From Armatimonadota bacterium (GTDB lineage Bacteria; Armatimonadota; Zipacnadia; Zipacnadales; JABUFB01), in assembly GCA_013314775.1 (NCBI GenBank), contig JABUFB010000008.1:975036-1039035 (forward strand): 64,000 bases of DNA, written 5' to 3'. The notes under the pieces were generated by a model. The model was not told the origin of the DNA. It was given only the letters and a program-made list of their open reading frames with translations, and did not search any database. Numbering within the stretch: position 1 is the first letter of the stretch; each line of letters starts with the position of its first letter. The position numbers and the translations under genes are program-made. Positions 21,212 through 37,762 of the stretch are shown piece after piece.

Positions 21212-21238
21212 GGCATCCGGGCGAGAGGCGTCGTAGCC

Positions 21239-22123
21239 TCAGAGGCCCTCCCGGTCAGTATTGCGGCCAAGGATTCCGCTCGGCCGCACGAACAAGACGA
21301 CCATCAGGATGAGAAGTGCGAAAGCGTCCTTATATCCGGAACTGATGAGTCCCGCCCCGAGTGATTCCAGAACCCCGATGAGCGCGCCCCCCACCACCGC
21401 GCCGATCCCATTCCCCAGGCCTCCCACGATCGCTGCGCAGAAACCTTTGACCGCCAGGGGTGCGCCGCTGCTGCTGCGCATCAGGGTCTTCGGAGTGAGC
21501 ACGACGCCGGCCAGGCCGCTGATACCCGCGCTCAACGCGAAGGCCAGCAGGGTCATGCGCTCCACATTGACGCCGGCGAGACGCGCTGCGGCCTTGTTGA
21601 TGGCACAGGCACGCATTGCTTTGCCGGCCACCGTGTAGTTGAAGAACACCTGGGTCGCGATGACGATGATGAGGGCGGTTCCGGCAATCCAGATCTCCTG
21701 GGACTCGAGAGCGGCGGGCCCAACGCGGATGATTTCATCGCCGCTGAAAGCCGGCAGCTTCTGGGCGTTTGGTCCCCACAGGAGCTTGGCGACCCCACGC
21801 AGGAGCATGGAGGCGCCGATGGTGATCGTGATCATGGAGATGACAGACTGGCCGCTGACCGGCCGCACCGCAAGGCGCTCCAGCAGCAGCCCCACGGCGG
21901 CCACAATGAGTGCGGCCACCACAACAGCAACGGCAAGGGGAACGTGGACGGCCACCAGGGAGACGGCAATCAGCCCGCCGAGCATGACGAACTCGCCCTG
22001 GGCGAAATTGATCACCCCCGTGGCATTGTAGATAATGTTGAACCCCATGCCCACGATCCCGTAGATCGTGCCCATCGCCAGACCGGAAAGGGTTAGCTGG
22101 AGAAGTTTCCCGGCGAGATCCAT
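21239..22123 (-). CDS. livH: Liv-type ABC transporter permease LivH
   Basis: A 294-residue permease from ATG 22123 (MDLAGKLLQLTLSGLAMGTIYG); a start at 22174 would add 17 hydrophilic residues. LivH hallmarks are GFNIIYNATGVINFAQGEFVMLGG, CAINKAAARLAGVNVERM (coupling loop) and GVVLTPKTLM. About eight membrane segments. It forms a heterodimeric channel with LivM. It is separated from livK by a 154-bp gap with a strong hairpin. Confidence 0.95.
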   Translation of the reverse strand: MDLAGKLLQLTLSGLAMGTIYGIVGMGFNIIYNATGVINFAQGEFVMLGGLIAVSLVAVHVPLAVAVVVAALIVAAVGLLLERLAVRPVSGQSVISMITITIGASMLLRGVAKLLWGPNAQKLPAFSGDEIIRVGPAALESQEIWIAGTALIIVIATQVFFNYTVAGKAMRACAINKAAARLAGVNVERMTLLAFALSAGISGLAGVVLTPKTLMRSSSGAPLAVKGFCAAIVGGLGNGIGAVVGGALIGVLESLGAGLISSGYKDAFALLILMVVLFVRPSGILGRNTDREGL

Positions 22124-22202
22124 GCGGTGCGTTTCGCTCGTGATCGGATGGACTGGAAGGCACGACAGGCTCACGCTGGTCGGCCGTTATCCAGTAGTGG
22201 AA

Positions 22203-22232
22203 GCCAGGCGACCCGGTGGCGGGTCGCCTGGC
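22203..22232 (-). terminator. Strong intercistronic hairpin between livK and livH
   Basis: GCCAGGCGACCCG (22203-22215) and CGGGTCGCCTGGC (22220-22232) form a 13-bp perfect stem with a 4-nt loop. It follows the binding-protein gene and precedes livH. Such hairpins often allow partial termination or protect the upstream mRNA, giving more binding protein than permease. There is no T-run. Confidence 0.6.
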
Positions 22233-22277
22233 CTGTTCTCATGGCGAGCTATTGTACAGGAAATGCGGCCGGTGTCG

Positions 22278-23531: not shown

Positions 23532-23582
23532 ACAACGTCCTCCCTTGGGGTATATTGCGCTGGTGCTGCCGGTGCGCTCACC

Positions 23583-23595
23583 TATCGCAACGATA
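23583..23595. promoter_or_regulatory. Short palindrome upstream of livK
   Basis: TATCG-CAA-CGATA is a 5-bp-arm inverted repeat about 50 bp before the livK start, a plausible operator position. Short enough to be chance. Confidence 0.2.
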
Positions 23596-23685
23596 AGCCG
23601 CGACTACTTGCTTTTCGACAAAGATTGCTTCTTCACCTTCTGACTGTCAGGAAAACAAGAAAGCTGCTCCCGGATCAATTGTCGC

Positions 23686-24693
23686 CTACTTCAGAGGCCG
23701 CGGGGAAGCGTAACTGGGGGGCAGGACCGAGGCGATCAACGCCAGGTCCGCGTCCCCCAGACGCCACCCCGCCGCGGAAGCGGACTCTTCGATCTGGTCT
23801 GGGCGCTTCGCTCCACAAATGGCGCAGGTCACCCCTGCCTGCTGCAGGACCCAGTTTATCGCCGTCTGCGCCGGGGTTCGCCCGATACGCGATGCCAGTG
23901 CCTTCAGGTGCTCCACGAATTCCAGATTGCGCTCGAAGGCACCCTCGGCGAACAGAGGGCTTCTGGATCGCACATCAGAGGCGTCCGGCCGGTAATCCGC
24001 CGAGAACTTGCCGGTGAGAAGCCCCTGAGCCATGGGGCCGTACGCCATGACGCCAATGCCCTGCTGAGCGCAGAAGTCCAGGGTGGACGGCACGTGCTCG
24101 CGGTAGAAGAGGTTGACGGGGATCTGATTTGAGATGAGGGGGCCCATGCCCAGGACGCGCCGGAGGTCATCGATGCCGAAGTTGGAGACACCCACGAACC
24201 GAGCCTTGCCGGACTGCCGGATCTCATGCAGCGCACCCACGGAATCCTCGATGGGAATCTCCGGGTCGGGCCAGTGGAGCTGGTACAGATCCACGTAGTC
24301 CGTTCGCAGACGCCGAAGACTGAGGTCGATGGCTTCGTGCAGCCACGCGGGGCTCCCGTCGCTCCAGAAGGACCCGTCCGCACGCACCCGACGGCCACCC
24401 TTGGTGGCAATGATAACCTTGTCCCGGACCCCGGCCAGGGCCGAGCCCAGTACTTCTTCGGAGTGACCGTTGCCGTACACGTCAGCGGTATCGAAGAAAT
24501 TGATGCCCAGATCGAAAGCTCTCTGCGCGGCAGCCGCGGTCTGAGCATCATCCACCTCGCCCCAGCCTGTCGCGCCCATTGCCCATGAGCCGAAGCAGAT
24601 TCGCGAGACCTCCGGGCCACCATTGCCGAGTTGAGCGTATTCCATGAAGGTATCAGCAACCTCCTGTCCGGGAGCACCGTCCATGCCAATCAT
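23686..24693 (-). CDS. Aldo/keto reductase
   Basis: A 335-residue (beta/alpha)8 NADPH-dependent oxidoreductase of the general 'L-glyceraldehyde 3-phosphate reductase/YhdN-like' type. The catalytic tetrad is complete: Asp68 and Tyr73 in NFFDTADVYGNG, Lys98 in IIATKGG, His140 in LYQLHWPDP. VGVSNFG and AYGPMAQGLLTGKF are typical cofactor and substrate loops. ATG 24693 follows the protease stop by 7 bp; the conserved part begins at MEYAQLGNGG (24645), so the true N-terminus may be shorter. No signal peptide. It may be co-transcribed with the protease but its role in that cluster is doubtful. Confidence 0.9.
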   Translation of the reverse strand: MIGMDGAPGQEVADTFMEYAQLGNGGPEVSRICFGSWAMGATGWGEVDDAQTAAAAQRAFDLGINFFDTADVYGNGHSEEVLGSALAGVRDKVIIATKGGRRVRADGSFWSDGSPAWLHEAIDLSLRRLRTDYVDLYQLHWPDPEIPIEDSVGALHEIRQSGKARFVGVSNFGIDDLRRVLGMGPLISNQIPVNLFYREHVPSTLDFCAQQGIGVMAYGPMAQGLLTGKFSADYRPDASDVRSRSPLFAEGAFERNLEFVEHLKALASRIGRTPAQTAINWVLQQAGVTCAICGAKRPDQIEESASAAGWRLGDADLALIASVLPPSYASPRPLK

Positions 24694-24700: not shown

Positions 24701-25465
24701 CTATTTCTTCAGCGGCTCCCAGACGTGCTTGAAGCGGGATGTGGGCAGGGTCAGGTAGGTTGCCGCATTTTCGCTGCCCATTGAGATGATGCCGACGACC
24801 TCGCCTCGGTCTGTTGTGCACGGGCCACCACTCATGCCCTGCACCGTCCGGGCATCGGTGTTGAAGGCAATGGCCCCTTGCTCGCCGCCGCGCATGACGG
24901 TGGTTACGTGACCCGGCTCCACGCGAACGTTGGGCCCGTAGTAGCTCTGAGCAAGCTCTTCGCCCAAGGGGAAGCCGGCCACGAAGACCCTCGTGCCTTC
25001 AGTGACCTGGTCGCTGCCAATCACGGGCAGCGTGGGCAGAGGATGGTCTGCTTCGAGCTTCAACAGGGCATAGTCCTTACCAATCTCCGAAGGATGCGGA
25101 CCTGCGGGCGTGCCCACGTGCTCGGTGCAGGTAGCCGCGATCTTCTCGGCGTCCTTCTGCCCACTCTTGAAGACCGCGATGATCTCGCCGCACTTGCCGC
25201 CCTTCACCACATGGGCGGCCGTGAGCACGTAACCGTCTTCTCGAATGATGACCCCGCTGCCCTGGGTATCGCCGTCCACGATGATCCAGACCGTGGCGAG
25301 CTTGATCCGCTCAACCACGTCACTGGGACCGAAGAAGGCGTAGCCTACCGCGACACCCGCACACACGAGCGCCAATAGTATGCCGAGGAACAGCGCCAGG
25401 CCGGTCTTGGGGATCAGCCCCGAGTCCAGGGAGCCGCCGATGAGCCGGGGACTATAGTAGGACAT
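24701..25465 (-). CDS. Membrane-anchored trypsin-like (S1/HtrA-type) serine protease
   Basis: A 254-residue protein with a cytoplasmic stub, one transmembrane helix (about 22-45, GLALFLGILLALVCAGVAVG) and a chymotrypsin-fold domain outside. The triad is intact: His85 in VLTAAHVV, Asp131 in GKDYALLKL, Ser212 in GMSGGP. There is no PDZ domain, unlike classic DegP/HtrA. It lies 127 bp after the tubulin-like gene on the same strand, at the end of the Hsp70/tubulin cluster. Membrane anchoring next to a vWA lipoprotein suggests a surface processing or quality-control role; substrate unknown. Confidence 0.85.
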   Translation of the reverse strand: MSYYSPRLIGGSLDSGLIPKTGLALFLGILLALVCAGVAVGYAFFGPSDVVERIKLATVWIIVDGDTQGSGVIIREDGYVLTAAHVVKGGKCGEIIAVFKSGQKDAEKIAATCTEHVGTPAGPHPSEIGKDYALLKLEADHPLPTLPVIGSDQVTEGTRVFVAGFPLGEELAQSYYGPNVRVEPGHVTTVMRGGEQGAIAFNTDARTVQGMSGGPCTTDRGEVVGIISMGSENAATYLTLPTSRFKHVWEPLKK

Positions 25466-25592
25466 GCCGATGCACCCCTGTACAGGAACGGGTGTATGTC
25501 AGACGGCGAATGACAGATGGCCTGACCGGGGGACTGGCATCGCGGCTCGCCGCCGTCTGCCAAGCGGGTGCCTGTGCCCCCATGCAGCGCCC

Positions 25593-28500
25593 TCAGTCCG
25601 TATACGGCACAAAAGACATGTTGCAGTTCGGACAGGACGGCGGGATCGACTGGACCTCCGGGCCCAGGAAGATCCCGCAGTTGCGGTTCCGGCAGTAATA
25701 TCCCGGGCGCCGTCCCATCGGCGGATCGAGCACGTGGTCCGCGTACGGGTGTCGATCAATCTTCGACTGCTCTTCACTGATCAGGTCAAAATGGTCTTCA
25801 AAGCCGCGGATAACATTGGCCGCTCGGGCGTCGTCCAGATCACGCAGGCCGAGCCGTGCCATTTCGTGGGTGCGCGCCTCGCCAGTGTCGGTGATCTCGA
25901 TGCGCCCCTTGACCGCCGTGGTGATGCGCAGGGCCTCAGGCTTACCCATCTCGTTGATGCGGTCCTGGATCATCTGCGCCAACACCGTGCGGGTCTCATT
26001 GCGGTAGGCCAGTTCGCCGACGCTCACCCCGAAGTCGGTGGGCAAGGTAAGCAGGCGGCGAGGCATCCCGGGCGCCTGAGCAAGCTCCATGCTGAACTCC
26101 TGGCGCTCCTGGGAGTAACTGAGCAGCCCCAGCAGAATCGCACCAACAAAGAACTGCTCGGCTTCGCGGATGTCTCTCTCGCCCGGCGGACGCGGGCGCA
26201 CCCCGGTACGGGCAAAAGCGGTCATCTCCTGTACCCGGCCTGCCACCGCACGAACGCCCTGGATCTTCTCTTCGCGCTCGGCAATGTCATACCCGCGGAT
26301 GATCCGAGTTGGATAAGCCGCCCGCTCACGCAAGAGAATGACCATGTAGGGATCTTGCACTTCCTGCAGCCACTTGTCGGTCCCCGGAGAGGTGAAACCT
26401 GTACGTCCCGCGGCAGCATTGACCGCATCGGTCAGCGCCGCCTTGAATTCCGGCCAGGCATCGGGATCCTGGGCGCCGCTGAAGAAGGCCCACCACCCAT
26501 CACGCGGATTGATCGGGTCGATGTCCGAATACTTGGGGTGCTGCAGGTTGAGTTCGGCAAGCTCCATGCCCTCGTCCACAACCTGGTTGATCTCGGCGGA
26601 GAGCCCGGCCGACTTGACCGCAGCCTCCTGGAAACGCTCGATCACCCGCTCGTCGTAGATGATGGGTGGAGTACCCGCGGGCGCGCGGCGTCGGTAGCGG
26701 TCGCGGATGTGCTCGCAGATGGCGTTCACATAACGCATCTGAACCAGCCCGCCGCGGGCGGCGTCGGTGGGGCAGGTGGAAGTGAAAGGCCGGCTGTCGT
26801 CATTGTCCAGGGGCGCACGAAAAGCAGCGTCGATCTCCTGGACACGCGTGGGTTCCAGCAACCCGCGCAGGAACTTGTCCCGGGTGCCGTCGTCCGGGTC
26901 CTTCATCACGCGATCCATCTTCAGGTCTACGACCTGCTCGCTGAACAGCATGCTTGTCCGGCGATCCAACGGTCGGGCCATGATCGCCGCATAGGCCCCG
27001 GTGGCCTCGTCGTGCCACTTGCCAAGGTACTCCAGCAGGTGGGTCAGACGAGCATCCAGGGCGGCAAGCACCGGGCGCGCCAAGTCGTTGTACAGATCCT
27101 TCTTGGCCGCCAGGAGTATGGCCTCGGCCGCCCGGTTGTATGTCTCGCAGACCATCACCCGGGGCTTGAGCATCTCGCGCCGCGCCGCGTGTTCGTTGAG
27201 CCAGCGAAAGCCGTAGATCGGCGGGATTCTCAGGAGCCAGTCCCCTCGCACAGCCTTGATGGCCTGGCGGGCATCGTCAAGCGTGTAGCCGGGAACCTTG
27301 GTGGCCGCAAGTTCCGCGTCGATACGTTTCAGTTCGGCCGTGAGCGCCTGGCGCAAGGCTCGCACCAGGCCCAGCGCGTATCGCGGACCCTGATCAAGGC
27401 GGAAGACCCGGGGCATAAGCCAGTCCACCACGGCCTGCTCCAGCCAGCGCGTGTTGCGCAGACGTCTTGTGTTGTACTCGACGCACTTCGTGAAGTACCC
27501 ATCAGGCCGGAGTGCGCCATCCAGCTTCTGCTCGAGGTCTTGGAAGGATTCATCGGAGAACTCGTCGGCGAAGGTGCGCCGGATCTGCTCGTTCATCCAG
27601 TCCTGGGGGCGGATTCCACCGGCCACATCCCGCAGGTCTTCCGGCACTTCGGTGAGCTGAAGCAGCAGGCCGTCGTCGGCGGCGCGGGTCGCTCCCACTC
27701 CCACGAGGCTCAGCAGGTCGTGAACATCCCTGTCGCTGGGGTCCTGAGGCTGAGCACCGTCGGAGTGGACCCGGTCGGCGGCTACATGCAACCAGCTCTC
27801 GATGAACTCCGACACTGTACGGTGGTAGCAGGCCTGGTGGCAGACGTCGGCAGGGAACTCGATGGAGGAGACCCCAAAAGTCAGAAAGCGCAGAGGGTAG
27901 CCATCCAGGTCGTACTCCGCCATGTCGGGGCCGAAATCGACTCGGCGCGACTGGGCCTCCTGGGTCTGGGCGATGACATCCACGTAGACGTATTCGGAGA
28001 TACGCCGCAGGAAGTCAGAGAAGCCGATTTCACCCCGCGGCCCAGACGGCGAGACGAGGTAGCAGTAATCGTAGCAGGCCGCGCGCGTACGCACTGGGAC
28101 CTGTTGTGGGAACTTGGCCTCGTACACCACCCCGCTGCGGTTGTAGAAGTCCAGCTCTGACAGAAGCGCCGCGGTGTTGCGGGTGAACTGCCGCTCGCTG
28201 GTGGCATCCTGCCGAGCAATCGCGAGAATCCCGATGCGTTCAGCCTGAACGCCTTCATTCCGGAGTATCTCGTGAACGATGTAACCCATGTCAATGAATA
28301 CGCCCGCACCGGTCCCGCCGCAACTCGAGGAGATGACATAGACCCTCGCCGGGCCCACCTGCACCTCATTGTCGGGGTCGATACCAAGCTGGGTCTTGAT
28401 TTGGGCATCGGTTACGGTGCTGACCCTTGAAGCCTTGTTCGCCACCTGGTTCCACATCTGCTGGAAACTCTGAGATGCCAGGAAAGCGAGACGGCCGAAC

Positions 28501-28841
28501 ATGCGCACGCCCTGGGCGCCTTGCTGGAACCCGCCCTTGTCGGCCCGTTTGAGTGCGTCCATGTCCACCCAGCTCTTCAGGCCGATATGCTCGAACTCCT
28601 CGGGATTGGTCATCATCCGCGCAACCTGATCGGGATGCGGGTTGATGAGAATCCCGTCAGGCCCCGCTGCATCCGGGTTGTTATTGTCCGTATCAACGAA
28701 GAGGAACTGGACGAACGGCAGGCGGCTGACATTGCCGTAGCGCCATTCCAGGCGCTCGCGGAGCATCCGCGCGACAGATGTCCCCGTGCCGCCGAGGGCG
28801 ATGACGAAGACCGGATTGAAGGTCGTAGGCATGCGCTGCAT
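25593..28841 (-). CDS. Very large tubulin/FtsZ-superfamily GTPase (Tubulin_2-like) with C-terminal zinc ribbon
   Basis: A 1082-residue protein, far longer than FtsZ or TubZ. The N-terminus PVFVIALGGTGTSVARMLRERL has the first nucleotide loop of the tubulin fold, and SSSCGGTGAGVFIDMG (about 171-186) is the tubulin/FtsZ G-box GGTGxG. The order resembles the family Pfam calls 'tubulin-like' (Tubulin_2). I did not find a clear T7 catalytic loop. The long middle part is helical, with ILLRERAAYPTRI and IREAEQFFVGAILLGLLSYS. The C-terminus ends in a zinc ribbon, CRNRNC followed by CPNC. ATG 28832 with GGGGG ten bases upstream is an alternative start. It is the largest product of the Hsp70/vWA operon and may form GTP-dependent filaments. 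Confidence 0.8.
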   Translation of the reverse strand: MQRMPTTFNPVFVIALGGTGTSVARMLRERLEWRYGNVSRLPFVQFLFVDTDNNNPDAAGPDGILINPHPDQVARMMTNPEEFEHIGLKSWVDMDALKRADKGGFQQGAQGVRMFGRLAFLASQSFQQMWNQVANKASRVSTVTDAQIKTQLGIDPDNEVQVGPARVYVISSSCGGTGAGVFIDMGYIVHEILRNEGVQAERIGILAIARQDATSERQFTRNTAALLSELDFYNRSGVVYEAKFPQQVPVRTRAACYDYCYLVSPSGPRGEIGFSDFLRRISEYVYVDVIAQTQEAQSRRVDFGPDMAEYDLDGYPLRFLTFGVSSIEFPADVCHQACYHRTVSEFIESWLHVAADRVHSDGAQPQDPSDRDVHDLLSLVGVGATRAADDGLLLQLTEVPEDLRDVAGGIRPQDWMNEQIRRTFADEFSDESFQDLEQKLDGALRPDGYFTKCVEYNTRRLRNTRWLEQAVVDWLMPRVFRLDQGPRYALGLVRALRQALTAELKRIDAELAATKVPGYTLDDARQAIKAVRGDWLLRIPPIYGFRWLNEHAARREMLKPRVMVCETYNRAAEAILLAAKKDLYNDLARPVLAALDARLTHLLEYLGKWHDEATGAYAAIMARPLDRRTSMLFSEQVVDLKMDRVMKDPDDGTRDKFLRGLLEPTRVQEIDAAFRAPLDNDDSRPFTSTCPTDAARGGLVQMRYVNAICEHIRDRYRRRAPAGTPPIIYDERVIERFQEAAVKSAGLSAEINQVVDEGMELAELNLQHPKYSDIDPINPRDGWWAFFSGAQDPDAWPEFKAALTDAVNAAAGRTGFTSPGTDKWLQEVQDPYMVILLRERAAYPTRIIRGYDIAEREEKIQGVRAVAGRVQEMTAFARTGVRPRPPGERDIREAEQFFVGAILLGLLSYSQERQEFSMELAQAPGMPRRLLTLPTDFGVSVGELAYRNETRTVLAQMIQDRINEMGKPEALRITTAVKGRIEITDTGEARTHEMARLGLRDLDDARAANVIRGFEDHFDLISEEQSKIDRHPYADHVLDPPMGRRPGYYCRNRNCGIFLGPEVQSIPPSCPNCNMSFVPYTD

Positions 28842-28907
28842 ACCCCCAGAAACGAAGACAGGTACAGTTGACGCGTCCGGCAGTTCGGCTGAAGCACGCC
28901 GTTCAGA

Positions 28908-29273
28908 CTACCACGCAGTATCCATTTTCCTGGGCCGGGGCCAGATAGCCCAGATCAGGATCAACTTGATGAGGACCACGGCCATGAGCAGGATGAAGTC
29001 GCCGATGACGCCGGAGGTTGGGCCCGGGCTGTAGCGCCACCAGACGAAGTACTCCTGGAGGTCCGGGAACACAAACAGCACACCGATGGCGAACAGGATG
29101 ATGCCGTAGGTGTATCCCAGCCGGATCGACAGTCCCGCAGCAAGTGCGCACAGGCCGTAGAACACCCAGTAGATGAACAGGGTCAGGAGCCAGCAGCCCA
29201 CTCCCACGGCCACCAGCAAGCCCAGGTCACGGGGCTGTCGGATCATCGCGAACAGATAGAGGATGTTTTCCAA
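28908..29273 (-). CDS. Small polytopic membrane protein of the Hsp70/tubulin cluster
   Basis: A 121-residue protein with four likely membrane segments: GLLVAVGVGCWLLTLFIYWV, YGLCALAAGLSIRLGYTYGI, IILFAIGVLFVFP, and DFILLMAVVLIKLILIWAIW. The C-terminus PRPRKMDTAW is basic and probably cytoplasmic. No family recognised. It lies 49 bp after the vWA gene and 66 bp before the tubulin-like gene, so it may anchor the cytosolic assembly to the membrane. Confidence 0.75.
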   Translation of the reverse strand: MENILYLFAMIRQPRDLGLLVAVGVGCWLLTLFIYWVFYGLCALAAGLSIRLGYTYGIILFAIGVLFVFPDLQEYFVWWRYSPGPTSGVIGDFILLMAVVLIKLILIWAIWPRPRKMDTAW

Positions 29274-29322
29274 GGCGCGTCCCTCCCCGCGCTGGGCGGT
29301 GCGGTCAGGCTGGTCTGCAGAT

Positions 29323-30642
29323 TCAGCCGACGATACAGCCGATGAGCACGATCAGGGCCGTGATCATGCCGATGATCGGCCCAGTATTGGTGGCGAAGAA
29401 GTCCGCCGCGTGAATGTCCAGAGACTGCTCGCCGGGCACGCCGTCGATGGCGATACGCAATGTGACCGGCTTGCCCAGCGGCACGCTGAGTTCGGTGCGG
29501 CCGTCATTGAGGCGAACCCCCCGCCGGGCAGTCACCACTATCTGCGGCCCTTTGCCTTCAAAAGCCGCCAGCGGCCGGTCGTCCAGGCCGGGCACGGGAA
29601 GGAAGACCACCCCGCGCGGGCTGATTCCCCGGCCGGACTGTACAAGGATGCGTCCCCCGAAGGCGCGGATGGTCTCGCGGGTGTCACCCAGGAGCAGCCG
29701 GTGCCGCCACGCCAGAGGCAGGCCGAGCAGGGCAACCAAAGACAGGATGGCCACGATCATAAACACGATCCGCCAGCCCGAGTAGTCAGGTGGCGGCGGC
29801 GGTATGTAGGTAGTGGCGGGCGCGGTGACGGTCGTCTGGGCTTCCACGCGCTTGCGATCCACCCCGTCGGCCCGGGCGTAGTCTGCGTCAGGGCCGATGA
29901 TGCGGTGCAGGATGATCTGTCTGCCCTCACTGGTACCGTACTTCCCGGCCGCAAACTCCCCGTCATCGCCGGCAAAATCCTTGCGCAGGGCTTCGAGGCG
30001 CTCCCGAGTGTACTTCTGCTTGCCGAAGGCCATGTCGGGGGTGTACGTGTCCGAAAAGATCAGGACTACCGGGCACAGCTTCCCGCCAGTGTCCTTCCAG
30101 AGCTTCAGAGCGCGCTCCATGCAGTAGCCCCGGGCATCCAGGACATTGCTGCCCCGGCTTTCGGGGTCCACGAGACTCTCCAGGCCTTCCAGAGCGTGGG
30201 TGAGGTTTTCGCGGGCTTCATCCGGATCGTCGTAGTCGAAGGTGCTCACGTTGTTCTCGCGAATGCGGCTGTCCCACGGGATGACAACGATCCTGTCCCC
30301 TGGGCAGAAGAAGAAGCCGCACATGTCGGTGAGGACCTTGATCGTGTCTTCAAGAACACCTTTGGCGTGAGCGCTGCCCGAGACGTCGATTCCCAGCGCA
30401 AAGGCCCCATTGACCGAACTCAGATGCGGAGCGGCGGAGAGCAGGTCGTCGCGGATACGGTCAAAGGTAGCAAAGGCATCAGTGCGCTCGATTACCGGCT
30501 TCGGCGCAGGCCCGGGTTTCGGAGGCGGTGGAGGCGGGGCAGGCGTAGACTTCCCGGCCAGCAGGACGCAGCCGGGAAGGGAACTGACGAACGCAAGAGC
30601 CATGCTGACCAGCGCCGACAACGTGACAAGCCGCCTGCTCAT
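29323..30642 (-). CDS. vWA-domain lipoprotein with extra membrane segments
   Basis: A 439-residue protein from ATG 30642. A lipoprotein signal ends LPGC (Cys25), followed by a Pro-rich linker (about 34-49) and a von Willebrand A domain with an intact MIDAS start DVSGS (86-90; FALGIDVSGSAHAKG) and VVLIFSDTYTPD. A second Pro-rich stretch leads to a hydrophobic helix (GWRIVFMIVAILSLVALLGL), then a beta-rich domain (ILVQSGRGISPRGVVFLPVPG) and a C-terminal hydrophobic segment (IIGMITALIVLIGCIVG). vWA domains bind partners through a metal. The gene begins 4 bp after the upstream beta-propeller gene ends, so they are tightly coupled. Confidence 0.8.
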   Translation of the reverse strand: MSRRLVTLSALVSMALAFVSSLPGCVLLAGKSTPAPPPPPPKPGPAPKPVIERTDAFATFDRIRDDLLSAAPHLSSVNGAFALGIDVSGSAHAKGVLEDTIKVLTDMCGFFFCPGDRIVVIPWDSRIRENNVSTFDYDDPDEARENLTHALEGLESLVDPESRGSNVLDARGYCMERALKLWKDTGGKLCPVVLIFSDTYTPDMAFGKQKYTRERLEALRKDFAGDDGEFAAGKYGTSEGRQIILHRIIGPDADYARADGVDRKRVEAQTTVTAPATTYIPPPPPDYSGWRIVFMIVAILSLVALLGLPLAWRHRLLLGDTRETIRAFGGRILVQSGRGISPRGVVFLPVPGLDDRPLAAFEGKGPQIVVTARRGVRLNDGRTELSVPLGKPVTLRIAIDGVPGEQSLDIHAADFFATNTGPIIGMITALIVLIGCIVG

Positions 30643-30646
30643 ACGT

Positions 30647-32104
30647 TCACGTCTTCGGGACCGTGTAAGCAAAGACCTCACCTGTGGTCATGTCCCCCAG
30701 CAGCAATAGCCGGTCCGATGCGGCAAGGAAGGCGCGTCCTGAACCGGGCGCCGCCAGTGTCGGCCGGGCACGCGTGGCAGAATGCACCATACGCGGTGCA
30801 AGATCGCCCGGGGCCCCCAGGAGCGATGCCAGCCACACGCCGGGGTCATTGTCGCGCTCCAGCAACAGAAGCGTGTCCATCGCCATATCGCCCGTGGCGT
30901 CTATCCCGTGAAACACGGAGACCGGCGGACTCGCCGGCCGCCCCAGGTCGAACTGGTAGAAATCGCGCACATCATCGTAGAAAAAGGCCAGGCGACGCCC
31001 CACCCGCGGGCCGATCAGTGACGGGCGAGTGCCCGGCATACGGCCGAGTGCAACAGTTCCGTCCCTGAGTGACACCCGTACCAGCGCCGTTCCCCGGTCC
31101 TGGCTGAATGAAAGCAGGACGGCGTATTGGCCGGTCACTGCAGGTACAGACACATAGTCATACACATCATTCGACCAGAATGTGCCAGGTTCCTCCATCC
31201 CCGACATGGACAGTCGCAGCAGGTTGCCGGACCCATCACGCAGCAGGAATGCGTCGTCGGTTGCAGCGGGCCAGCCAACGGGCTGCTCGCGTCTTCCCGG
31301 ATGCGCCGGCACATCCGTAGCCCGAAGCAATCCCCGCTCACCCCGGCAGAGAGCGCACGTGTCGTACAGGCGCAGGAGAAGCTCCCCGGAAGGCCCGGTT
31401 GAGCAGATGAGCAGACGGTCATCGACGATGCCGGCCTTGTGATCGCGGCCTTCCAGGGGCACTTCGAAGCACGGGTCGCCGTCGCCGATGAAGCAAGCCG
31501 CGAGCCGATCACCAACCACCGCGTAAAGGTACCGCTCGGAAACCTGGATGTCCGCGTACTCATGTGTCCCGGGAGTCAGCAACGGGTGCTGGGTCCACAG
31601 GTCAAGATCCCTACCGGTGTCCTCGCTGACGCAGCGAACCGCACCCCGCGCAGTGGGGAAGTACACTCGCCCGAAGGCGCAGACAGGCCGACCGACTGGC
31701 TCACCAAGCCGCCAGACAAGAGGCTCGCGGGGTTCCGAACCCTCCCCCGCGAGATGCACCCGACCGGTCCGGTGCATATTAGCCAGCGGCCCTCGGGAGC
31801 CGTCGCGGATATGCCGCACCGGTCCCGCACAGCCTTCAGGGCAGTTCAGTGGCTGGTCCGCGGTCACGAGAACCGGGTGGCGGCACCGCGCACACTGGAC
31901 GTACAGCGCGCCACAACGAGGACAGGCGCATTCATCCGCGACCCTGAGGAGCGCACCGGGGCGCGACGGGCACGCCTGGCACTCGAACACCTGGGCGCAG
32001 CCGCAGTGCGGGCAGTAGCGGTGGGTCGCCGAGGGCGGCTCGATGGTCGCCCGGCAGTGCGGGTTGTGGCAACGCTCCATGTCGTAGAGCTCGATCTCCA
32101 GCAT
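30647..32104 (-). CDS. Zinc-ribbon plus beta-propeller (PQQ/WD-like) protein
   Basis: A 485-residue protein. The first 95 residues carry several CxxC-type pairs (RYCPHCGCAQ, FECQACPS, CACPRCGALYVQCARC, NCPEGC), which read as two or three zinc ribbons. The remainder (about 130-485) is a repetitive beta-strand pattern such as PVCAFGRVYFPTARGAVRCV, ERYLYAVVGDRLAACFIG and DDAFLLRDGSGNLLRLSM, typical of a PQQ/WD-like propeller. No catalytic motif or signal peptide. It is probably a cytosolic scaffold of the Hsp70/tubulin system. It starts 6 bp after the GrpE-like gene. Confidence 0.72.
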   Translation of the reverse strand: MLEIELYDMERCHNPHCRATIEPPSATHRYCPHCGCAQVFECQACPSRPGALLRVADECACPRCGALYVQCARCRHPVLVTADQPLNCPEGCAGPVRHIRDGSRGPLANMHRTGRVHLAGEGSEPREPLVWRLGEPVGRPVCAFGRVYFPTARGAVRCVSEDTGRDLDLWTQHPLLTPGTHEYADIQVSERYLYAVVGDRLAACFIGDGDPCFEVPLEGRDHKAGIVDDRLLICSTGPSGELLLRLYDTCALCRGERGLLRATDVPAHPGRREQPVGWPAATDDAFLLRDGSGNLLRLSMSGMEEPGTFWSNDVYDYVSVPAVTGQYAVLLSFSQDRGTALVRVSLRDGTVALGRMPGTRPSLIGPRVGRRLAFFYDDVRDFYQFDLGRPASPPVSVFHGIDATGDMAMDTLLLLERDNDPGVWLASLLGAPGDLAPRMVHSATRARPTLAAPGSGRAFLAASDRLLLLGDMTTGEVFAYTVPKT

Positions 32105-32110
32105 CGCGTA

Positions 32111-32818
32111 CTACTCCTGCCCGGATCTCTTGCGTCCGAGAACGCCGCCATCCAGCCTGTCACTGGGGATGTCATCCAGATCCGGCAGCGTAGGCAACAC
32201 GCCCCCTTCCGCGGCATAGCGGATGACCTCGGCCCGCACCAGCACGTCGTCACCCAGGAGCCAACCCGCATCTTCCACCGAACAGACCGTATTGTCCAGG
32301 GCGGGATCTTGTGCCACACGCGTTTCGACGACCTCGTGGCGCACCGGATCGATCCGATCCCCCGGACGCACGAGCATGATGCTGAGGCCGAGATCGCCGG
32401 CCAGCTGTTCGGCTGCAGCGGCGCGGGCCCGCATTATCGCCGCATCGAGCCGGGCGAGAGCCTCGTCCGTAGCGGGACCTTCATTCGAGGGCGAAAGAAC
32501 AGCAGCCAGCCTGCGCAGGCCCTGGGCAAGGGTCGGGGTGTCGCGAGGACCGGAGAGCTTGCGCATTACCTGAGTCTCGAGATCATCAAGGCCGGCTTCG
32601 CGGAAGGCCAGGGATTCAGCCGCGGCGCCCTGCGACCGAGCGTCCGCAAGCAGAAGGCGCGCCTCCGCGAGTGCAGTACGAAACGGCGCATCACTTGCAG
32701 CGTCAGGGGCGCGGTCAAGGTCATCCAGACGCTTGCGCAGGCCATCCACGTCAAACTGTCCCAGCCGCCGGGTGAGATCATTCATGTCGCCCGCGGCGGA
32801 TGTGTCTTGGTCGTTCAT
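32111..32818 (-). CDS. GrpE-like protein (putative nucleotide exchange factor)
   Basis: A 235-residue protein from ATG 32818, which has GGGGGAG six bases upstream. The N-terminal two thirds is helical and Leu/Ala/Asp-rich, consistent with coiled coil. The C-terminal region LVRPGDRIDPVRHEVVETR, then WLLGDDVLVRAEVIRYA, matches the beta-domain pattern of GrpE (G..FDP..HEAV ... lLRPA.V.V). GrpE exchanges nucleotide on DnaK/Hsp70, and the Hsp70-like gene is immediately upstream, so partnership is likely. Similarity is partial; it could be a GrpE-derived regulator. The repeat element at 32839-32942 lies just upstream. Confidence 0.65.
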   Translation of the reverse strand: MNDQDTSAAGDMNDLTRRLGQFDVDGLRKRLDDLDRAPDAASDAPFRTALAEARLLLADARSQGAAAESLAFREAGLDDLETQVMRKLSGPRDTPTLAQGLRRLAAVLSPSNEGPATDEALARLDAAIMRARAAAAEQLAGDLGLSIMLVRPGDRIDPVRHEVVETRVAQDPALDNTVCSVEDAGWLLGDDVLVRAEVIRYAAEGGVLPTLPDLDDIPSDRLDGGVLGRKRSGQE

Positions 32819-32838
32819 GGGCGGCTCCCCCTGCATCA

Positions 32839-32942
32839 CAGCCCGCGAGTCGGGCGGCAACATCTAGCCACGGGTGGAGTGGAGCGAAGCGGAACACAAC
32901 CCGTGGATTCGGTCGATCTAGCTGAGCCCCAAAGGGGCGGCA
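32839..32942. repeat. Dispersed structured repeat, copy A
   Basis: About 104 bp starting CAGCCCGCGA and ending GGGGCGGCA, closely matching 38111-38221. It contains three self-complementary parts: GCCCGCGA/TCGGGCGG, CCACGGGT/ACCCGTGG (loop about 23 nt) and GCCCC-AAA-GGGGC. It sits between the Hsp70-like and GrpE-like genes, inside the operon. It resembles a REP/MITE-like non-coding repeat. Confidence 0.75.
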
Positions 32943-32999
32943 GAATTCGGAAGACGCAGCGCACTGGATAGAGGCACCCTTTCACCACCGCCCAATGCC

Positions 33000-35534
33000 T
33001 CACAACCTCAGCGCCGCCTCGCGCGGGATTGCCGTCTCCCCCTCCAGAAACGCGGCACGCCACCAAAAACACTGGTCGCTGCCATACTCCGCGCTGATCA
33101 CAAGCTGGCGCGGCTCAGGCGCAGGATTGCGCACATGATGGATCGAAATCGCGCCTTCAGGGCCATCCGGCGCGTAATTGGCCCGCAACTCCACCCGCAG
33201 ATCCTCACGTGCCCCAATGCGCAGGGCGCGTTCGGTACTGATCCCCGGCAGAGCGCCCCGTGGGCACAGGCGCTGGCGGACGAATTCGTCCCCCGATTCC
33301 GGATCGGCCACCACCAGGTCCAAGTCGCAGGCGAGAATGCCGTCCACGCGGTAGTCGTAGTACAGGGATGCCCCTCGTGCAACATTCACCGTGCAGTCTG
33401 CCGGCGTCGCGACCACGACGCGCTGGGACTTTCCCAGGGCATCGTACAAGCGTGGCGCAATGACGGGTATCTGCCCGGTGCCGCCGGTGATGAACAGGAA
33501 CGTGATGTCTCCCCTGCGCAGCCCGGCATCGGAGAGCATCTGGGCCAGCGAGCGAATGCGCGCCCGGGCTGTAAGGGTCATTTCGCGCCACAATGCCTGC
33601 CGCAGTCGGTCATCCAGAGCCGCATTGAGATTCGGGAAGAAGAGCGCCGGGTCGGGCATGATCCCGGCGCTGCAGATGCTTTCCAGGAACGGGACCACCA
33701 GGCGCTCCACGTGAGCGGGGCTGATCTGGAAGGAGCCCAGGTCGGTGTGGAACTCGCGAACCGCCGATGGTGCGCCGGGCAGGAAAAGGCTCTCCTTGAG
33801 CCGCCGACACTCCTCGCGCGCCGCGTGGATGGACAGGGGCCGATCCATCCCCGGCAGTTTCATCAGCGCCCGGGCACCATCCCATCCGAAACGCACCTGG
33901 TCCGCGCGCTGATCCAGGAGCCACGACAGGAGCAAGTCGTCCACGGTGTCTCCACCGAAACGGTAACCGGCTGCACAGCGCTGGACGGCCCGGAATGTGC
34001 CGTCCGAAACCGCCACCTGCAAGACCGCGACGTCTGTAGTCCCCGCTCCGCAGTCGAAGACGAGTATCAGCTCCCCGTCCTGCAGATGATAGGTTCGGCC
34101 GTCGAAGGTGTAGTCGCCTCGGCGCAGGCTATGCATGAGGTCCAGCGCCGCGCACTCGGGTTCGCTGGGGGTGAGTATGTCCTCGACTGCCAGACCCGCC
34201 ATCTCGGCTGCCCGGAGGGTATGATCCCGTTGGCTGGCGTAAGCAGCCGCGTCTTCCATGACCGGAAGCGTGAGGACAAGCCGAGCATCCATGTCCACCT
34301 GCCCACGGAAGGGCCCGGCGGCGCGAACTTCGTCCATGAGGTAGCGCATGAACTCTGCGACCATCTGTACAGGCGACAACTCGCGGCCACCAGGAAGGCT
34401 CACGGTCTGCTCGGCCGCGGCGCCTCTCAGGCGGGTTTTCATCGATTCAACCACCATCTGCCCCGGGCCTTCAGCTCCTGCGGCAACCACAACATTGTGC
34501 CCACAAAGGGGGACGGGAGAATCTGCGCGGTATAAGATGGCCGAGCGCGTCGTGGTTGCGGTGCGTTCCGCTGAGCCGGGAGCCATCGGCCACAGGACCG
34601 GGCGAGGTTCGCGGTCTCGCGGGTCCACCCAGTTGTCGGTATAGTAGACCGCAGACTTCGCGGTTCCGAAGTCCAAACCCAGGGTCCAGCGCTGCACGAT
34701 GTCGGGCTCATCCCGGCGAAACTCGGCATACAAGAGGAGGGTTTTCGGGGCGCGCCCACAATCAATATTCAGGCGCGCCACCCCTTGGAAATCGTCCCGG
34801 GCACGCAGAATCAGGAGCCGCACGGATCCCGCAGGGACGATGGTGCTGGTCTCGGACCCCAGCGGAACCGGGGCTGCGTCCTCGAAGGTGATCTCCAGCA
34901 CATCATCAGCCGGGCTTGTCGGGGGCTCTTCCCACCCCGCACGGATCCCCTCCGGTATCGGGCCCAGCGACACCGTCGCGCCGGTTCCACCGAGATTGCG
35001 CACAGGCACCCGAATCTCGCGAGTGCGCGCGGTGAAGACCACCAGCTCAGCGCCCACGATGATCTCGGCCTTCCCAAGGCGCCGCAGCGGAACTTCCAGG
35101 CGCCAGGTCCGCCAGCGGTGATGGGTCGGGTCCCACGGGCGAGGCTCGTCGGGGCGTGTGCCGCCGCGATCAGAGGAGCTGATCTCGAGCACCAGGAAAC
35201 GCGCATCCGCAGGCAATGATTCGGGATCAACGCCCACCCGCAGGCTGTTGTCTGTCGCTCCGGGTGCAAGGCGGCGTTCGGGAAGCTCCGTCGTGCGTTG
35301 GTGCTGAAGCGTGACGAGATGTCCCCAGGGCTGGTCCGGGCCCACGCGGACCCGGTACTCCACGTATCCCGCGCCCACATTGCGCAGGACAAGGGGTGCG
35401 GTGGAGTCCCCCGCATCCGCAACGCCAAGCTCGCGCCCGGGAAGCTCAGCCTCCAGTCGACCGGCCGGCCAGCCACAATGGGGGCAGAAGTTCACCGCGC
35501 GCCCTGTTTCAAAGCCGCAGGTAGGGCAGTTCAT
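33000..35534 (-). CDS. Hsp70/actin-fold ATPase with N-terminal zinc ribbon
   Basis: An 844-residue protein from ATG 35534. It starts with a zinc ribbon (CPTCGF...CPHCGW, residues 3-22), followed by about 250 residues of beta-sandwich-like sequence (LVLRNVGAGYVEYRVRVG). The actin/Hsp70 ATPase core is at about 284-720: phosphate-1 LGLDFGTAKS (285-294), phosphate-2 VFDCGAGTTD (492-501), connecting GGDT, and the adenosine motif FLFITGGTGQ. A beta-rich C-terminus follows (IGAREDLRVELRANYAPDG). It is unlike housekeeping DnaK, which has no zinc ribbon or N-terminal extension. It is the first gene of the tubulin/vWA operon. The likely role is an ATP-driven clamp or assembly factor. Confidence 0.83.
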   Translation of the reverse strand: MNCPTCGFETGRAVNFCPHCGWPAGRLEAELPGRELGVADAGDSTAPLVLRNVGAGYVEYRVRVGPDQPWGHLVTLQHQRTTELPERRLAPGATDNSLRVGVDPESLPADARFLVLEISSSDRGGTRPDEPRPWDPTHHRWRTWRLEVPLRRLGKAEIIVGAELVVFTARTREIRVPVRNLGGTGATVSLGPIPEGIRAGWEEPPTSPADDVLEITFEDAAPVPLGSETSTIVPAGSVRLLILRARDDFQGVARLNIDCGRAPKTLLLYAEFRRDEPDIVQRWTLGLDFGTAKSAVYYTDNWVDPRDREPRPVLWPMAPGSAERTATTTRSAILYRADSPVPLCGHNVVVAAGAEGPGQMVVESMKTRLRGAAAEQTVSLPGGRELSPVQMVAEFMRYLMDEVRAAGPFRGQVDMDARLVLTLPVMEDAAAYASQRDHTLRAAEMAGLAVEDILTPSEPECAALDLMHSLRRGDYTFDGRTYHLQDGELILVFDCGAGTTDVAVLQVAVSDGTFRAVQRCAAGYRFGGDTVDDLLLSWLLDQRADQVRFGWDGARALMKLPGMDRPLSIHAAREECRRLKESLFLPGAPSAVREFHTDLGSFQISPAHVERLVVPFLESICSAGIMPDPALFFPNLNAALDDRLRQALWREMTLTARARIRSLAQMLSDAGLRRGDITFLFITGGTGQIPVIAPRLYDALGKSQRVVVATPADCTVNVARGASLYYDYRVDGILACDLDLVVADPESGDEFVRQRLCPRGALPGISTERALRIGAREDLRVELRANYAPDGPEGAISIHHVRNPAPEPRQLVISAEYGSDQCFWWRAAFLEGETAIPREAALRL

Positions 35535-35583
35535 CGGTCTCTCTGAGCCGCGCAAACCGTGTGCAAGCGGCGCGTGCATGCTG

Positions 35584-35589: not shown

Positions 35590-35635
35590 TCGGCTTTAGC
35601 AACGTGTGATCCAGACGCGAATGGAGCACGAACGT

Positions 35636-37762
35636 ATGACGGCCACCCAAAGAGTTCGACGTCTCCGGGAGGTTGCCCTCTCCCGAAATGTGCGCTGGTC
35701 CTGGCAGCGCGAACTGTTCGAGGGCGAAGCGTGGATGCAGACCGTGGGCGATCTCTGGTGGATCCGGCGCAAGGGCCACAAGGACGCCCATATCCTGCGC
35801 AATCTGGACGTGGTCATCGACCCCGACGAATTGATCGTGGGCAAGGCTACCCAACGCGACCCGAATGCGGAGGAGGCGATGCGGCTCGAAAAGGCCCGGC
35901 AATTCATGTCCGGACAGCCCCGAGCGGTAGGCCAGAACGGGCACATGGCCATCGACTATGAGAAACTGCTGGCTCTCGGCTGCAGAGGGATCCAGAGCCA
36001 GATAGACGCCCGAATTGGGGAACTGAAGCCCTCGCACCCCGAGGATCAACGAAAGATCGTGTTCCTCCAGGCAGCGAGGGAGGCCTTGGAGGGCGTCTGC
36101 GACCTGTCCCGCCGTTACGCGGAGCATGCCCGGAAGCTTGCCGAAAATGAACAGGATCCGACCCGACGCGCAGAACTGGTGGAGATCGCCGATATCTGCG
36201 AGCGCGTTCCGGCAGGGCCGGCGGCGACCTTCCATGAGGCGCTCCAGTCTGTCCACCTGCTGACTTTCGCTATCCAGTACGCGGACAACATCGTGCTCCT
36301 GTGCCCCGGCCGCATGGACCGGTGGCTGAACAAGTACTATCAGCGGGATCTCGCGGAGGGCCGCATCACCCCCGAGCAGGCGCAGGAACTGATTGACTGC
36401 TTCTACATCATGATCAACGAAGTCGTGCCCCGCGGGCTGGCGGTGGGTGTGATGGTGGGGGGCCAGGATTCCGACGGGCAGGACGTCACCAACCCGATCT
36501 CCCACATGTGCCTGCAAGCCGTTGAGAACACCGCCCTCATCTATCCTACGCTGGGCATCTGCTGGCACGAGGGAACGCCCGACGACCTGCTGGACCTGGG
36601 TTGCCGACTCATGGCCGGCGGCCGCGCGAACCCCGCCGTTTTCAATGATGACGTGATCGCCCGAGGCCTCCTGCGGGCCGGCGTGAGCAAAGACCGTGCC
36701 CACGAGTATATCAACTCCACCTGTGTCGAGATCTCCCCCATCGCATCCAGCAATGTCTGGGTGGCAAGCCCTTACTTCAACTTGACAGGATTGCTGCTGG
36801 AGACAATCAGCGCATTCGTGGGGCGAGGGGAAAAACCGTCTTTCAGGGCACTGTACAGCGCGTACCGCAAGCGGATTGCGAACGCGATCCGGGACGCAGT
36901 TACCGCTCAGAATGAATACCGGGAATCTCGCGAGCGTTTCGGGGGTTATCCGCTGTTGTCGTGTTTTGTCAATGACTGTTTGGAGCGCGGCCTGGACATC
37001 GACCACGGCGGCGCGAGACACAACTGGATCGAATGCTCCTTCGTGGGTCTGGCGAACGTTGTGGACTCGCTCATGGTGATCCGAGAGTTCGTCTACGAGC
37101 GAAAGAGCATCACGCTTTCGGGCCTGAAGACTGTATTGGACAACGATTTTGCGGAATGTGAGGACACCCGCCAGTGTTTCCTCAACCACCCGGCGAAGTA
37201 CGGCAACGACCATGAAGAGGCCGATGCCCTGGCCCGTGAGTTCACCGAGTTTCTCACCCGCGAATGCCTGAAGCACCGGGTGCGACTCAATGACCGCTTC
37301 TATCCCGGGTTCTTCTGCTGGATCATGCACGAGCGTCTGGGTTCGGAAACCGGAGCTTCTCCGGATGGGCGCAAGGCGGGAGTCGCTTTCGCGGACGGCG
37401 CCGGACCCGCTCAGGGCCGAGAACGCAAAGGGCCGACCGCGGCGATAAAATCCACGACGAAATGGGACCACACCCCCTGTCTCGGCGGGCTCGTGCTCAA
37501 CCTCAAGTTCAGCCCGAAGGCCCTCACAACTGATGCCGACCGGTGGAAACTGGCCGAACTCATCAAGGCGTACATGCGCTTAGGCGGGCAGGAAGTGCAG
37601 ATCAACTGCGTGAGCCGGGAGACCCTCCTCGCAGCGCGTGAAAGGCCGCAGGACTACCGGGACCTGGTGGTGCGCATTGCAGGATACACGGACTACTTTA
37701 CCGGGCTGGCTCCAGGGATGCAGGACGAAGTCATCTCGCGTACCGAGTTTGGTGAAGTCTAG
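35636..37762 (+). CDS. Pyruvate formate-lyase-like glycyl radical enzyme
   Basis: A 708-residue protein from ATG 35636, which has GGAG nine bases upstream. Both radical sites are present: the thiyl Cys363 in NSTCVEISPIASS and the C-terminal glycyl loop RIAGYTDYFTGL with Gly683, followed by QDEVISRTEF. The fold signature GGQDSDGQDVTNPISHMCL is also there. The CVEI context is shared by PFL-like, glycerol/diol dehydratase-like and other members, so the substrate is unclear; it need not make formate. The enzyme must be activated by a radical-SAM activase, but none is adjacent. Oxygen sensitivity implies anoxic growth phases. Confidence 0.88.
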   Translation: MTATQRVRRLREVALSRNVRWSWQRELFEGEAWMQTVGDLWWIRRKGHKDAHILRNLDVVIDPDELIVGKATQRDPNAEEAMRLEKARQFMSGQPRAVGQNGHMAIDYEKLLALGCRGIQSQIDARIGELKPSHPEDQRKIVFLQAAREALEGVCDLSRRYAEHARKLAENEQDPTRRAELVEIADICERVPAGPAATFHEALQSVHLLTFAIQYADNIVLLCPGRMDRWLNKYYQRDLAEGRITPEQAQELIDCFYIMINEVVPRGLAVGVMVGGQDSDGQDVTNPISHMCLQAVENTALIYPTLGICWHEGTPDDLLDLGCRLMAGGRANPAVFNDDVIARGLLRAGVSKDRAHEYINSTCVEISPIASSNVWVASPYFNLTGLLLETISAFVGRGEKPSFRALYSAYRKRIANAIRDAVTAQNEYRESRERFGGYPLLSCFVNDCLERGLDIDHGGARHNWIECSFVGLANVVDSLMVIREFVYERKSITLSGLKTVLDNDFAECEDTRQCFLNHPAKYGNDHEEADALAREFTEFLTRECLKHRVRLNDRFYPGFFCWIMHERLGSETGASPDGRKAGVAFADGAGPAQGRERKGPTAAIKSTTKWDHTPCLGGLVLNLKFSPKALTTDADRWKLAELIKAYMRLGGQEVQINCVSRETLLAARERPQDYRDLVVRIAGYTDYFTGLAPGMQDEVISRTEFGEV

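Follow-up and report, generated by a model that had tools for sequence, protein, structure and literature searches.

What might a bacterium do with an operon that places a giant tubulin-fold GTPase beside an Hsp70-like ATPase, a GrpE-like protein and several membrane proteins? The question is raised by an Armatimonadota bacterium, of which a 64,000-nucleotide stretch of DNA (hereafter the window) was analysed. Seven co-directional minus-strand genes lie at 24701-35534, encoding, from first to last, Hsp70, GrpE-like, propeller, vWA, small membrane, tubulin, and protease proteins (Table 1). A sequence-only reading had described them as an envelope-linked machine with two polymer-type NTPases, and all seven open reading frames, together with the motifs that it named in the Hsp70-like, tubulin-like, vWA, and protease proteins, were found in the sequence. 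Its remark that several genes are only 4-6 bp apart holds for two junctions but not for the others: successive gaps measure 136, 6, -35, 49, 66, and 127 bp, the -35 bp overlap of the propeller and vWA genes becoming +4 if an internal ATG is the vWA start. Because it recurs in divergent genomes, the operon is a real arrangement and not a product of chance. No RNA elements were found, and promoter and terminator scans gave results no better than shuffles. The answer developed here, which we regard as evenly balanced between right and wrong, is that the operon encodes a tubulin switch, tethered to the membrane and gated by a chaperone, that reacts when the envelope is perturbed.

Table 1. Features of the seven-gene operon, listed from first to last gene.
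Feature	Length	Coordinates	Strand	Basis
Hsp70-family ATPase	844 aa	33000..35534	-	PF00012 (E 1.3e-13), motifs, AF2 model, DnaK matches
GrpE-like protein	250 aa	32111..32863	-	family profile to PDB GrpE, hhalign
Zinc-ribbon and BamB-like propeller protein	485 aa	30647..32104	-	family profiles, hydropathy
vWA lipoprotein	up to 452 aa	29323..30681	-	family profile, alignment A6, hydropathy
Small membrane protein	121 aa	28908..29273	-	hydropathy, homologues
Tubulin_2 / FtsZl1 giant tubulin-fold GTPase	1082 aa	25593..28841	-	PF13809 (E 1.6e-46), AF2, structure matches
Trypsin-like serine protease, one N-terminal TM	254 aa	24701..25465	-	PF13365 (E 2.6e-25), triad alignment, hydropathy

The earlier assignment of the largest protein to the tubulin superfamily was borne out. 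Its Tubulin_2 domain scored 159.6 bits against a cut-off of 27, its glycine-rich T1 and T4 loops (LGGTG and SSCGGTGAG) are conserved in alignments A1/A4, and its AF2 model (pLDDT 77, pTM 0.71) matched CetZ1 (VIA Z 25.8, rmsd 4.2, 309 of 330 CetZ1 residues) as well as tubulin and FtsZ. A PDB sequence profile search with the tubulin alignment returned coiled-coil noise only. The predicted layout consists of a GTPase domain (~1-360), a helical/coiled-coil insertion (~361-780), and a second tubulin-like domain (~780-890), with a C-terminal four-Cys zinc ribbon (1050-1073) whose cysteines are supported by alignment A3; the model thereby suggests a complete tubulin fold interrupted by a helical insertion of ~400 residues. 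The protein is a predicted GTPase and may form GTP-dependent filaments.

Of the two polymer-type NTPases originally proposed, the tubulin fold stands, but the actin-type ATPase must be recast. Its ATPase motifs (LDFGTAKS, DCGAGTTD, and ITGGTG) are present, the phosphate-1/phosphate-2 motifs DFGT and DCGAGTTD and the adenosine GG being invariant in alignment A2, but actin-type polymerisation is unsupported because the protein is modelled as a lidless Hsp70; the GrpE-like protein that accompanies it argues for a chaperone or switch and against a filament of the actin type. The HSP70 Pfam profile scored 50.5 bits (cut-off 20.6). An N-terminal four-Cys zinc ribbon and beta-rich regions precede a nucleotide-binding domain (~281-730) and a substrate-binding beta domain (~730-838), and both of these domains of the AF2 model matched DnaK (Z ~27). 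In the predicted model, the strands of the beta domain (737-831) have moderate-to-good pLDDT and matches reach approximately DnaK residue 502; the alpha-helical lid is absent, the protein stopping at 844 right after the beta domain without C-terminal helices. The low mean confidence of the model (pLDDT 54.7) counts against a chaperone-gated switch, whereas the modelled substrate-binding beta domain and the separation of the tubulin-linked Hsp70 clade from DnaK count in its favor. Model confidence is also low in the N-terminal beta regions, where an FNIII component was sought. An alternative in-frame start, an ATG upstream at 35579, is possible for this gene.

On the window protein alone, the GrpE Pfam profile scored 18.8 bits, under its cut-off of 25.8; the GrpE assignment is nevertheless upheld, because the family profile matches PDB GrpE (E 3.7e-9; hhalign 97%) and homologues from a sister genome (26.4 bits) and another relative (28.2 bits) exceed the cut-off. 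Its C-terminal GrpE beta domain (DPxxHE ... GW ... VRAEV) is conserved, which favors the switch, and we infer that the protein is the predicted nucleotide-exchange partner of the Hsp70-like ATPase. Canonical DnaK, GrpE, and FtsZ are encoded elsewhere in the same genome, a further point for the switch; the seven-gene set is therefore an addition, and a canonical housekeeping role for the operon’s Hsp70 or GrpE is ruled out. The propeller protein has no significant Pfam match in the window, and its family profile matches BamB (E 1.6e-5) and zinc-ribbon proteins (E 0.008); it contains no hydrophobic segment and is likely cytosolic. The small membrane protein, whose homologues adjoin tubulin in 7 families, had been credited with four helices, of which three are clear in hydropathy and the fourth is uncertain.

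The vWA gene probably starts at 30642, and its product combines a lipobox (LPGC), a vWA domain with DxSxS in a MIDAS-type motif (DVSGSA), a TM segment at ~305-323, an Ig-like domain, and a C-terminal TM segment (434-452). No Pfam match in the window protein was significant; the family profile matched ITIH vWA domains (E 1e-4), in keeping with the MIDAS-bearing lipoprotein described before. The protease belongs to Trypsin_2 and, as had been noted, retains an intact H/D/S triad (TAAHVV / KDYALL / GMSGGP). This triad is degenerate in several homologues and the second phosphate motif is gone from the Hsp70-like proteins of Bacteroidota, so catalysis by protease and Hsp70 is not universally required, a point against the switch. 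Three products are predicted to be membrane-bound, namely the vWA protein (through its lipobox and two further hydrophobic segments), the TM protein, and the protease, and sister operons add a MotA/ExbB-OmpA pair resembling Zorya ZorAB; both observations support the proposed link to the envelope.

Across 56 Armatimonadota tubulin loci, a vWA gene stands beside tubulin in 29, and a co-directional Hsp70 gene lies less than 10 kb from tubulin in 18, which represent 8 families; the Tubulin_2 neighbourhoods, whose survey the sequence-only reading had proposed, thus retain the partners. Several observations here favor a switch: the order PROP-VWA-TM-TUB(-PROT), with HSP(-GRPE) upstream or downstream, recurs in many divergent loci; tubulin and Hsp70 distances correlate (rho 0.889, 0 of 2000 permutations), a congruence that also partly reflects shared species history; a separate Hsp70/GrpE-tubulin association with DnaK-type Hsp70s occurs in G203/G204; Bacteroidota possess a parallel operon of Hsp70-like, vWA, tubulin, and protease genes; and the ZorAB-like modules occur in sister operons. 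Counting against it, the window itself lacks the MotA/OmpA pair and contains no recognisable toxic effector. A phage-borne origin was rejected (0 matches in 50,697 phage records); plasmid matches numbered six, all distant.

Sequence and predicted structure give a set that is inherited together: a vWA lipoprotein and a serine protease, both predicted to face outward, the small TM protein, and, in the cytosol, the tubulin-fold GTPase, lidless Hsp70, GrpE-like protein, and zinc-ribbon propeller. The vWA protein and protease would sense or process an envelope ligand (damage, phage or neighbour contact), and the predicted inner segment of the vWA protein and the TM protein would relay the signal inward. 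With the GrpE-like factor driving its cycle, Hsp70 would use its substrate-binding beta domain to keep tubulin or its coiled-coil insertion assembly-incompetent until the signal makes it let go. The freed GTPase might then assemble beneath the membrane on a scaffold of propeller and zinc-ribbon proteins, altering the envelope by sealing, remodelling or growth arrest. A bolder and distinctly unlikely extension would make FtsZl1 operons a widespread envelope-breach defence, in which a giant split-fold tubulin, under Hsp70/GrpE control, assembles where the membrane is damaged once it is triggered by one of several interchangeable outward sensors (either vWA with a trypsin-like domain or a motor resembling ZorAB); bacteria would then have their own form of regulated cytoskeletal immunity.

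Alternatively, and possibly, though we are inclined to doubt it, the operon is a biological-conflict system (anti-phage or kin-conflict) akin to GAP1-N2/DO-GTPase systems, its GTPase pair lost or replaced and the tubulin/Hsp70 assembly serving as effector. Themes 1 and 2 of those systems share its parts (Kaur et al., 2020; PMC7159879), DO-GTPase relatives adjoin FtsZl1 in Firmicutes (L084, L095, L104, L108), and a locus of the same phylum (L149) has a complete GAP1-N2/HSP70/GrpE system with an Hsp70-vWA fusion that recurs beside tubulin in L039. However, the Armatimonadota tubulin loci searched had no DO-GTPase or GAP1 relative nearby, the Hsp70s of GAP1 systems are not the closest ones to the window Hsp70, and the flanks look metabolic, with no defence gene identified in them.

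The 2010 proposal of a constitutive membrane-remodelling cytoskeleton, in which FtsZl1 filaments give the inner membrane its shape or vesiculate it while Hsp70/GrpE do no more than fold or take apart the large tubulin, appears rather unlikely for this operon. It was made for FtsZl1-vWA operons (Makarova and Koonin, 2010; PMC2875224) and gains from the predicted full tubulin fold, from TolQR/Pal-like MotA/ExbB-OmpA partners in relatives, which also suit envelope mechanics, and from retention of the tubulin gene in all four surveyed genomes of family f1. An accessory role better suits the patchy occurrence of Tubulin_2 genes (80 of 291 phylum genomes), the plasmid copies in Deinococcus, the degenerating protease and ATPase motifs, and the kinship with predicted conflict systems; between constitutive remodelling and a response to conflict or envelope damage, we favor the latter. 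That Hsp70, GrpE-like protein, and protease are simply a folding and quality-control set serving vWA and tubulin, without signalling, we consider very unlikely: a predicted substrate-binding domain and a trypsin/HtrA-type protease with one TM would suit it, but the genes are kept where the protease active site (several operons) or the Hsp70 motif (Bacteroidota) is lost, which suggests binding or structural roles.

Co-inheritance supplies a concrete, testable partner list for the FtsZl1 proteins, whose role has been a question since 2010. The predicted split fold may show where the remainder of the tubulin fold lies, which was asked that year, and the MotA/ExbB-OmpA link recasts the “OmpA” genes of FtsZl1 operons as likely stator-type modules and connects these operons with a known class of phage-sensing modules.

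Literature searches returned no paper on the full gene set, in agreement with the earlier statement that no functional description of it was known; nor, DO-GTPase systems aside, did they yield an account of a tubulin-family protein of bacteria paired with its own dedicated Hsp70/GrpE set. The two halves of the gene set already correspond to predicted systems. With the DnaK/GrpE pair, the operon shares the ATPase motifs, the Hsp70 nucleotide-binding and substrate-binding beta domains, and the GrpE C-terminal beta domain, but its Hsp70 lacks the alpha lid, carries the added N-terminal domains, and forms a separate clade. No AAA+ family match was obtained in any of the seven proteins, so the set lacks the MoxR ATPase of a vWA-MoxR ternary system. 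The ZorAB-type module, which needs peptidoglycan binding for anti-phage activity (PMC11890865), has look-alikes only in sister operons, where a MotA/TolQ/ExbB protein with a coiled-coil tail and an OmpA/MotB-type protein score to ZorA/ZorB models, the sole models compared; none of the window’s seven proteins matched the pair in PADLOC-DB. FtsZl1-vWA operons, predicted to remodel membranes, share the tubulin family (of which the window protein is a member), the vWA partner, and membrane proteins; a P-loop GTPase and protein kinase are reported there (PMC2875224), both lacking in the seven-gene set. The text consulted names no Hsp70, GrpE-like protein, zinc-ribbon propeller, or trypsin-like protease as a partner. 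In DO-GTPase/GAP1-N2 systems, tubulin with vWA (theme 1) and HSP70 with GrpE (theme 2) were called non-overlapping and tied to a DO-GTPase, GAP1, and an FNIII protein (PMC7159879). The window shares both pairs, zinc ribbons, and membrane proximity; membership is ruled out, since no DO-GTPase or GAP1 lies in the cluster. One marginal DO-GTPase2 match sits at the end of another contig, where a missing GAP1 is possible, and the assembly contains no GAP1-M. The parts of the operon are thus in print (2010, 2020), and its novelty is the merging of both themes without the GTPase or GAP1.

The operon, read from sequence alone as seven minus-strand genes, is present in the window with all seven open reading frames, which encode, in order, Hsp70-like (Pfam HSP70, E 1.3e-13), GrpE-like, zinc-ribbon propeller, vWA lipoprotein, small TM, tubulin-like (Tubulin_2, E 1.6e-46) and protease (Trypsin_2, E 2.6e-25) products. 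Successive intergenic gaps are 136, 6, -35, 49, 66, and 127 bp, the overlap at the propeller/vWA junction becoming a 4-bp gap if an internal ATG is used. Flanking the operon are an aldo/keto-reductase-like gene, 7 bp past the protease gene, and genes of a branched-chain amino-acid ABC transporter; the latter also adjoin it in genomes G255 and G256. Upstream lies a divergent glycyl-radical-enzyme-like gene (assigned by reading the sequence), and none was found near the tubulin gene in relatives.

The weaker assignments were examined as families. The window's GrpE-like protein alone matches GrpE under the Pfam cut-off; copies in a sister genome (26.4 bits) and in G203 (28.2 bits) clear it. The ten-protein family profile matched PDB GrpE (E 3.7e-9) and aligned at 97% probability with GrpE extracted from relatives, a set whose few non-GrpE sequences would be expected to weaken the match, not to produce it. 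The vWA profile matched inter-alpha-trypsin-inhibitor vWA domains (E 1e-4) and the propeller profile BamB (E 1.6e-5). The operon is an additional set in a genome (6.12 Mb, 37 contigs) with its own DnaK (contig C6), GrpE (C2), and FtsZ (C1), and the window's copy is its only Tubulin_2 gene.

The predicted structure of the tubulin-like protein (36 sequences, pLDDT 77.3, pTM 0.71) resembles CetZ1 (VIA Z 25.8, 309/330 residues, rmsd 4.2), tubulins (Z about 22), and FtsZ (Z 21.7). Matches run from residue 8-9 to 844-889, with the GTPase domain ending near residue 360; most simply, the tubulin fold is predicted to be split by a helical, coiled-coil insertion at about 361-780. Makarova and Koonin found the T6-H7 elements and similarity of the C-terminal domain not identifiable in this family, FtsZl1 (PMC2875224). 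In the five closest members a four-cysteine motif at the C-terminus is invariant; most of the distant members lack it. The Hsp70-like model is weaker (pLDDT 54.7, better in parts of the nucleotide-binding core and the C-terminal beta domain); it matches DnaK over both domains (Z about 27), with no lid at its C-terminal end. By hydropathy, no hydrophobic segment occurs in the Hsp70-like, GrpE-like, propeller, or tubulin-like proteins; the protease has one at its N-terminus, the vWA protein a signal/lipobox plus segments 305-323 and 434-452, and the TM protein three. The vWA domain and protease would thereby lie outside and the remaining proteins inside.

The operon is a real, conserved, multi-gene system. 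Tubulin relatives occur in 80 of the 291 genomes of the phylum, Armatimonadota; neighbourhoods up to 20 kb were searched with iterated profiles, followed by a final count over 56 loci. On the same strand and within 10 kb of the tubulin gene lie at least 29 vWA, 20 propeller, 18 Hsp70, 13 TM, 11 protease, and 9 GrpE-like genes, all of them minimum counts, as many contigs are short (the G254 locus is in two pieces); absences are weak evidence, since refined profiles recovered members that early rounds missed. The neighbouring Hsp70s span 8 families. Hsp70 genes occur at about four loci per 6.1 Mb; by our estimate, therefore, the chance of one falling in any random 20 kb is about 1%, and fewer than one is expected. 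The propeller-vWA-TM-tubulin(-protease) order is intact in six loci (L052, L055, L056, L062, L068, L051); Hsp70(-GrpE) lies upstream in the window, L052, L057, L043, L044, L039, and L040, and downstream in L056, L059, L061, L062, and L051. The Hsp70 gene of families f17 and f18 is followed by a gene for a long, conserved coiled-coil protein, in some cases split. Many loci that lack the Hsp70 partners (L033, L034, L037, L045-L049, L160, and L161) have, right next to the first Tubulin_2 gene, another that encodes a shorter paralogue of about 650-940 aa.

Tree distances of tubulin and Hsp70 are correlated over the 14 loci that hold the two genes together (Spearman 0.889, 0/2000 permutations), a value that includes shared species history. 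The window-type Hsp70 falls in a group of tubulin-linked Hsp70s (support 0.96) that is separate from both DnaK and the Hsp70s of a GAP1-type system. In G203/G204 the Hsp70s, including one in G204 with a fused vWA domain, lie nearer DnaK, which suggests that the association arose more than once.

The window protease keeps an intact triad, which is degenerate in L059, L061, L051, and the second copy in L056, where tandem proteases follow the tubulin gene, one with an intact triad and the other without H and S. Outside the phylum, a single row of genes in Bacteroidota loci L087, L097, and L103 encodes an Hsp70-like protein, a coiled-coil protein, two more proteins (with weak vWA matches in L087), the tubulin, and a protease; in these Hsp70-like proteins, which are perhaps pseudo-ATPases, the second phosphate motif is lost (DMGGATxN). 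A protease gene also closely follows tubulin in alphaproteobacterial L105, L107, and L112.

Coordinates of the operon, its flanks, and related features in surveyed loci
Locus	Positions	Feature
Window	24701-35534	Operon, minus strand
Window	20237-24693	ABC transporter and aldo/keto-reductase-like genes
Window	35606-37762	Glycyl-radical-enzyme-like gene
L056	12518-14301	Tandem proteases
L056	16828-18828	Coiled-coil protein after Hsp70
L062	2752-5130	Coiled-coil protein after Hsp70
L061	11630-13323	Coiled-coil protein after Hsp70
L059	6832-9306	Coiled-coil protein after Hsp70
L064	12615-14962	MotA/TolQ/ExbB, coiled-coil tail (mostly + OmpA)
L065	12977-15478	MotA/TolQ/ExbB, coiled-coil tail (mostly + OmpA)
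L043	5771-8042	MotA/TolQ/ExbB, coiled-coil tail (mostly + OmpA)
L157	12390-13973	MotA/TolQ/ExbB, coiled-coil tail (mostly + OmpA)
L167	10829-12680	MotA/TolQ/ExbB, coiled-coil tail (mostly + OmpA)
L087	1808-5383	Bacteroidota Hsp70-like beside FtsZl1
L097	1-3012	Bacteroidota Hsp70-like beside FtsZl1
L103	1-2835	Bacteroidota Hsp70-like beside FtsZl1
L148	9211-10359	DO-GTPase2-like gene

From domain content, topology, and co-inheritance, we infer that a membrane-tethered tubulin may assemble, gated by the chaperone, upon an envelope signal. In the DO-GTPase/GAP1-N2 systems described by Kaur et al., tubulin and HSP70/GrpE form separate themes (PMC7159879). Neither the GTPase nor GAP1 was found in the window; four Firmicutes loci, where the identical search detects DO-GTPase relatives next to FtsZl1, act as a positive control. 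A single marginal DO-GTPase2-like gene is present in the window's genome, at the extreme end of contig C11, its downstream neighbours missing from the assembly; this gene might act in trans. Within Armatimonadota, G266 carries elsewhere in its genome a complete DO-GTPase2/GAP1-N2/FN3/HSP70/GrpE system of textbook type, with an Hsp70-vWA fusion (L149, contig C49).

No defence family in PADLOC-DB fits the whole operon, only trypsin-like or Hsp70-like segments being matched. Each part can be placed in a known family, and the combination is a variant for which the literature searched gave no description. FtsZl1 had been partnered with vWA, GTPase, kinase, and OmpA (Makarova and Koonin, PMC2875224). 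In several other FtsZl1 operons (L064, L065, L043, L157, weakly L155, and Deinococcus plasmids) a MotA/TolQ/ExbB protein, mostly with a long coiled-coil tail, stands right behind tubulin, in several cases with an OmpA-domain protein; these modules are probably the earlier 'OmpA' partners. The L051 OmpA protein matches ZorB (E 3.3e-24), and the anti-phage activity of the Zorya ZorAB pair depends on the ZorA tail and on binding to peptidoglycan (PMC11890865); the MotA/ExbB-OmpA pairs of FtsZl1 operons are like ZorAB in module, but not in system.
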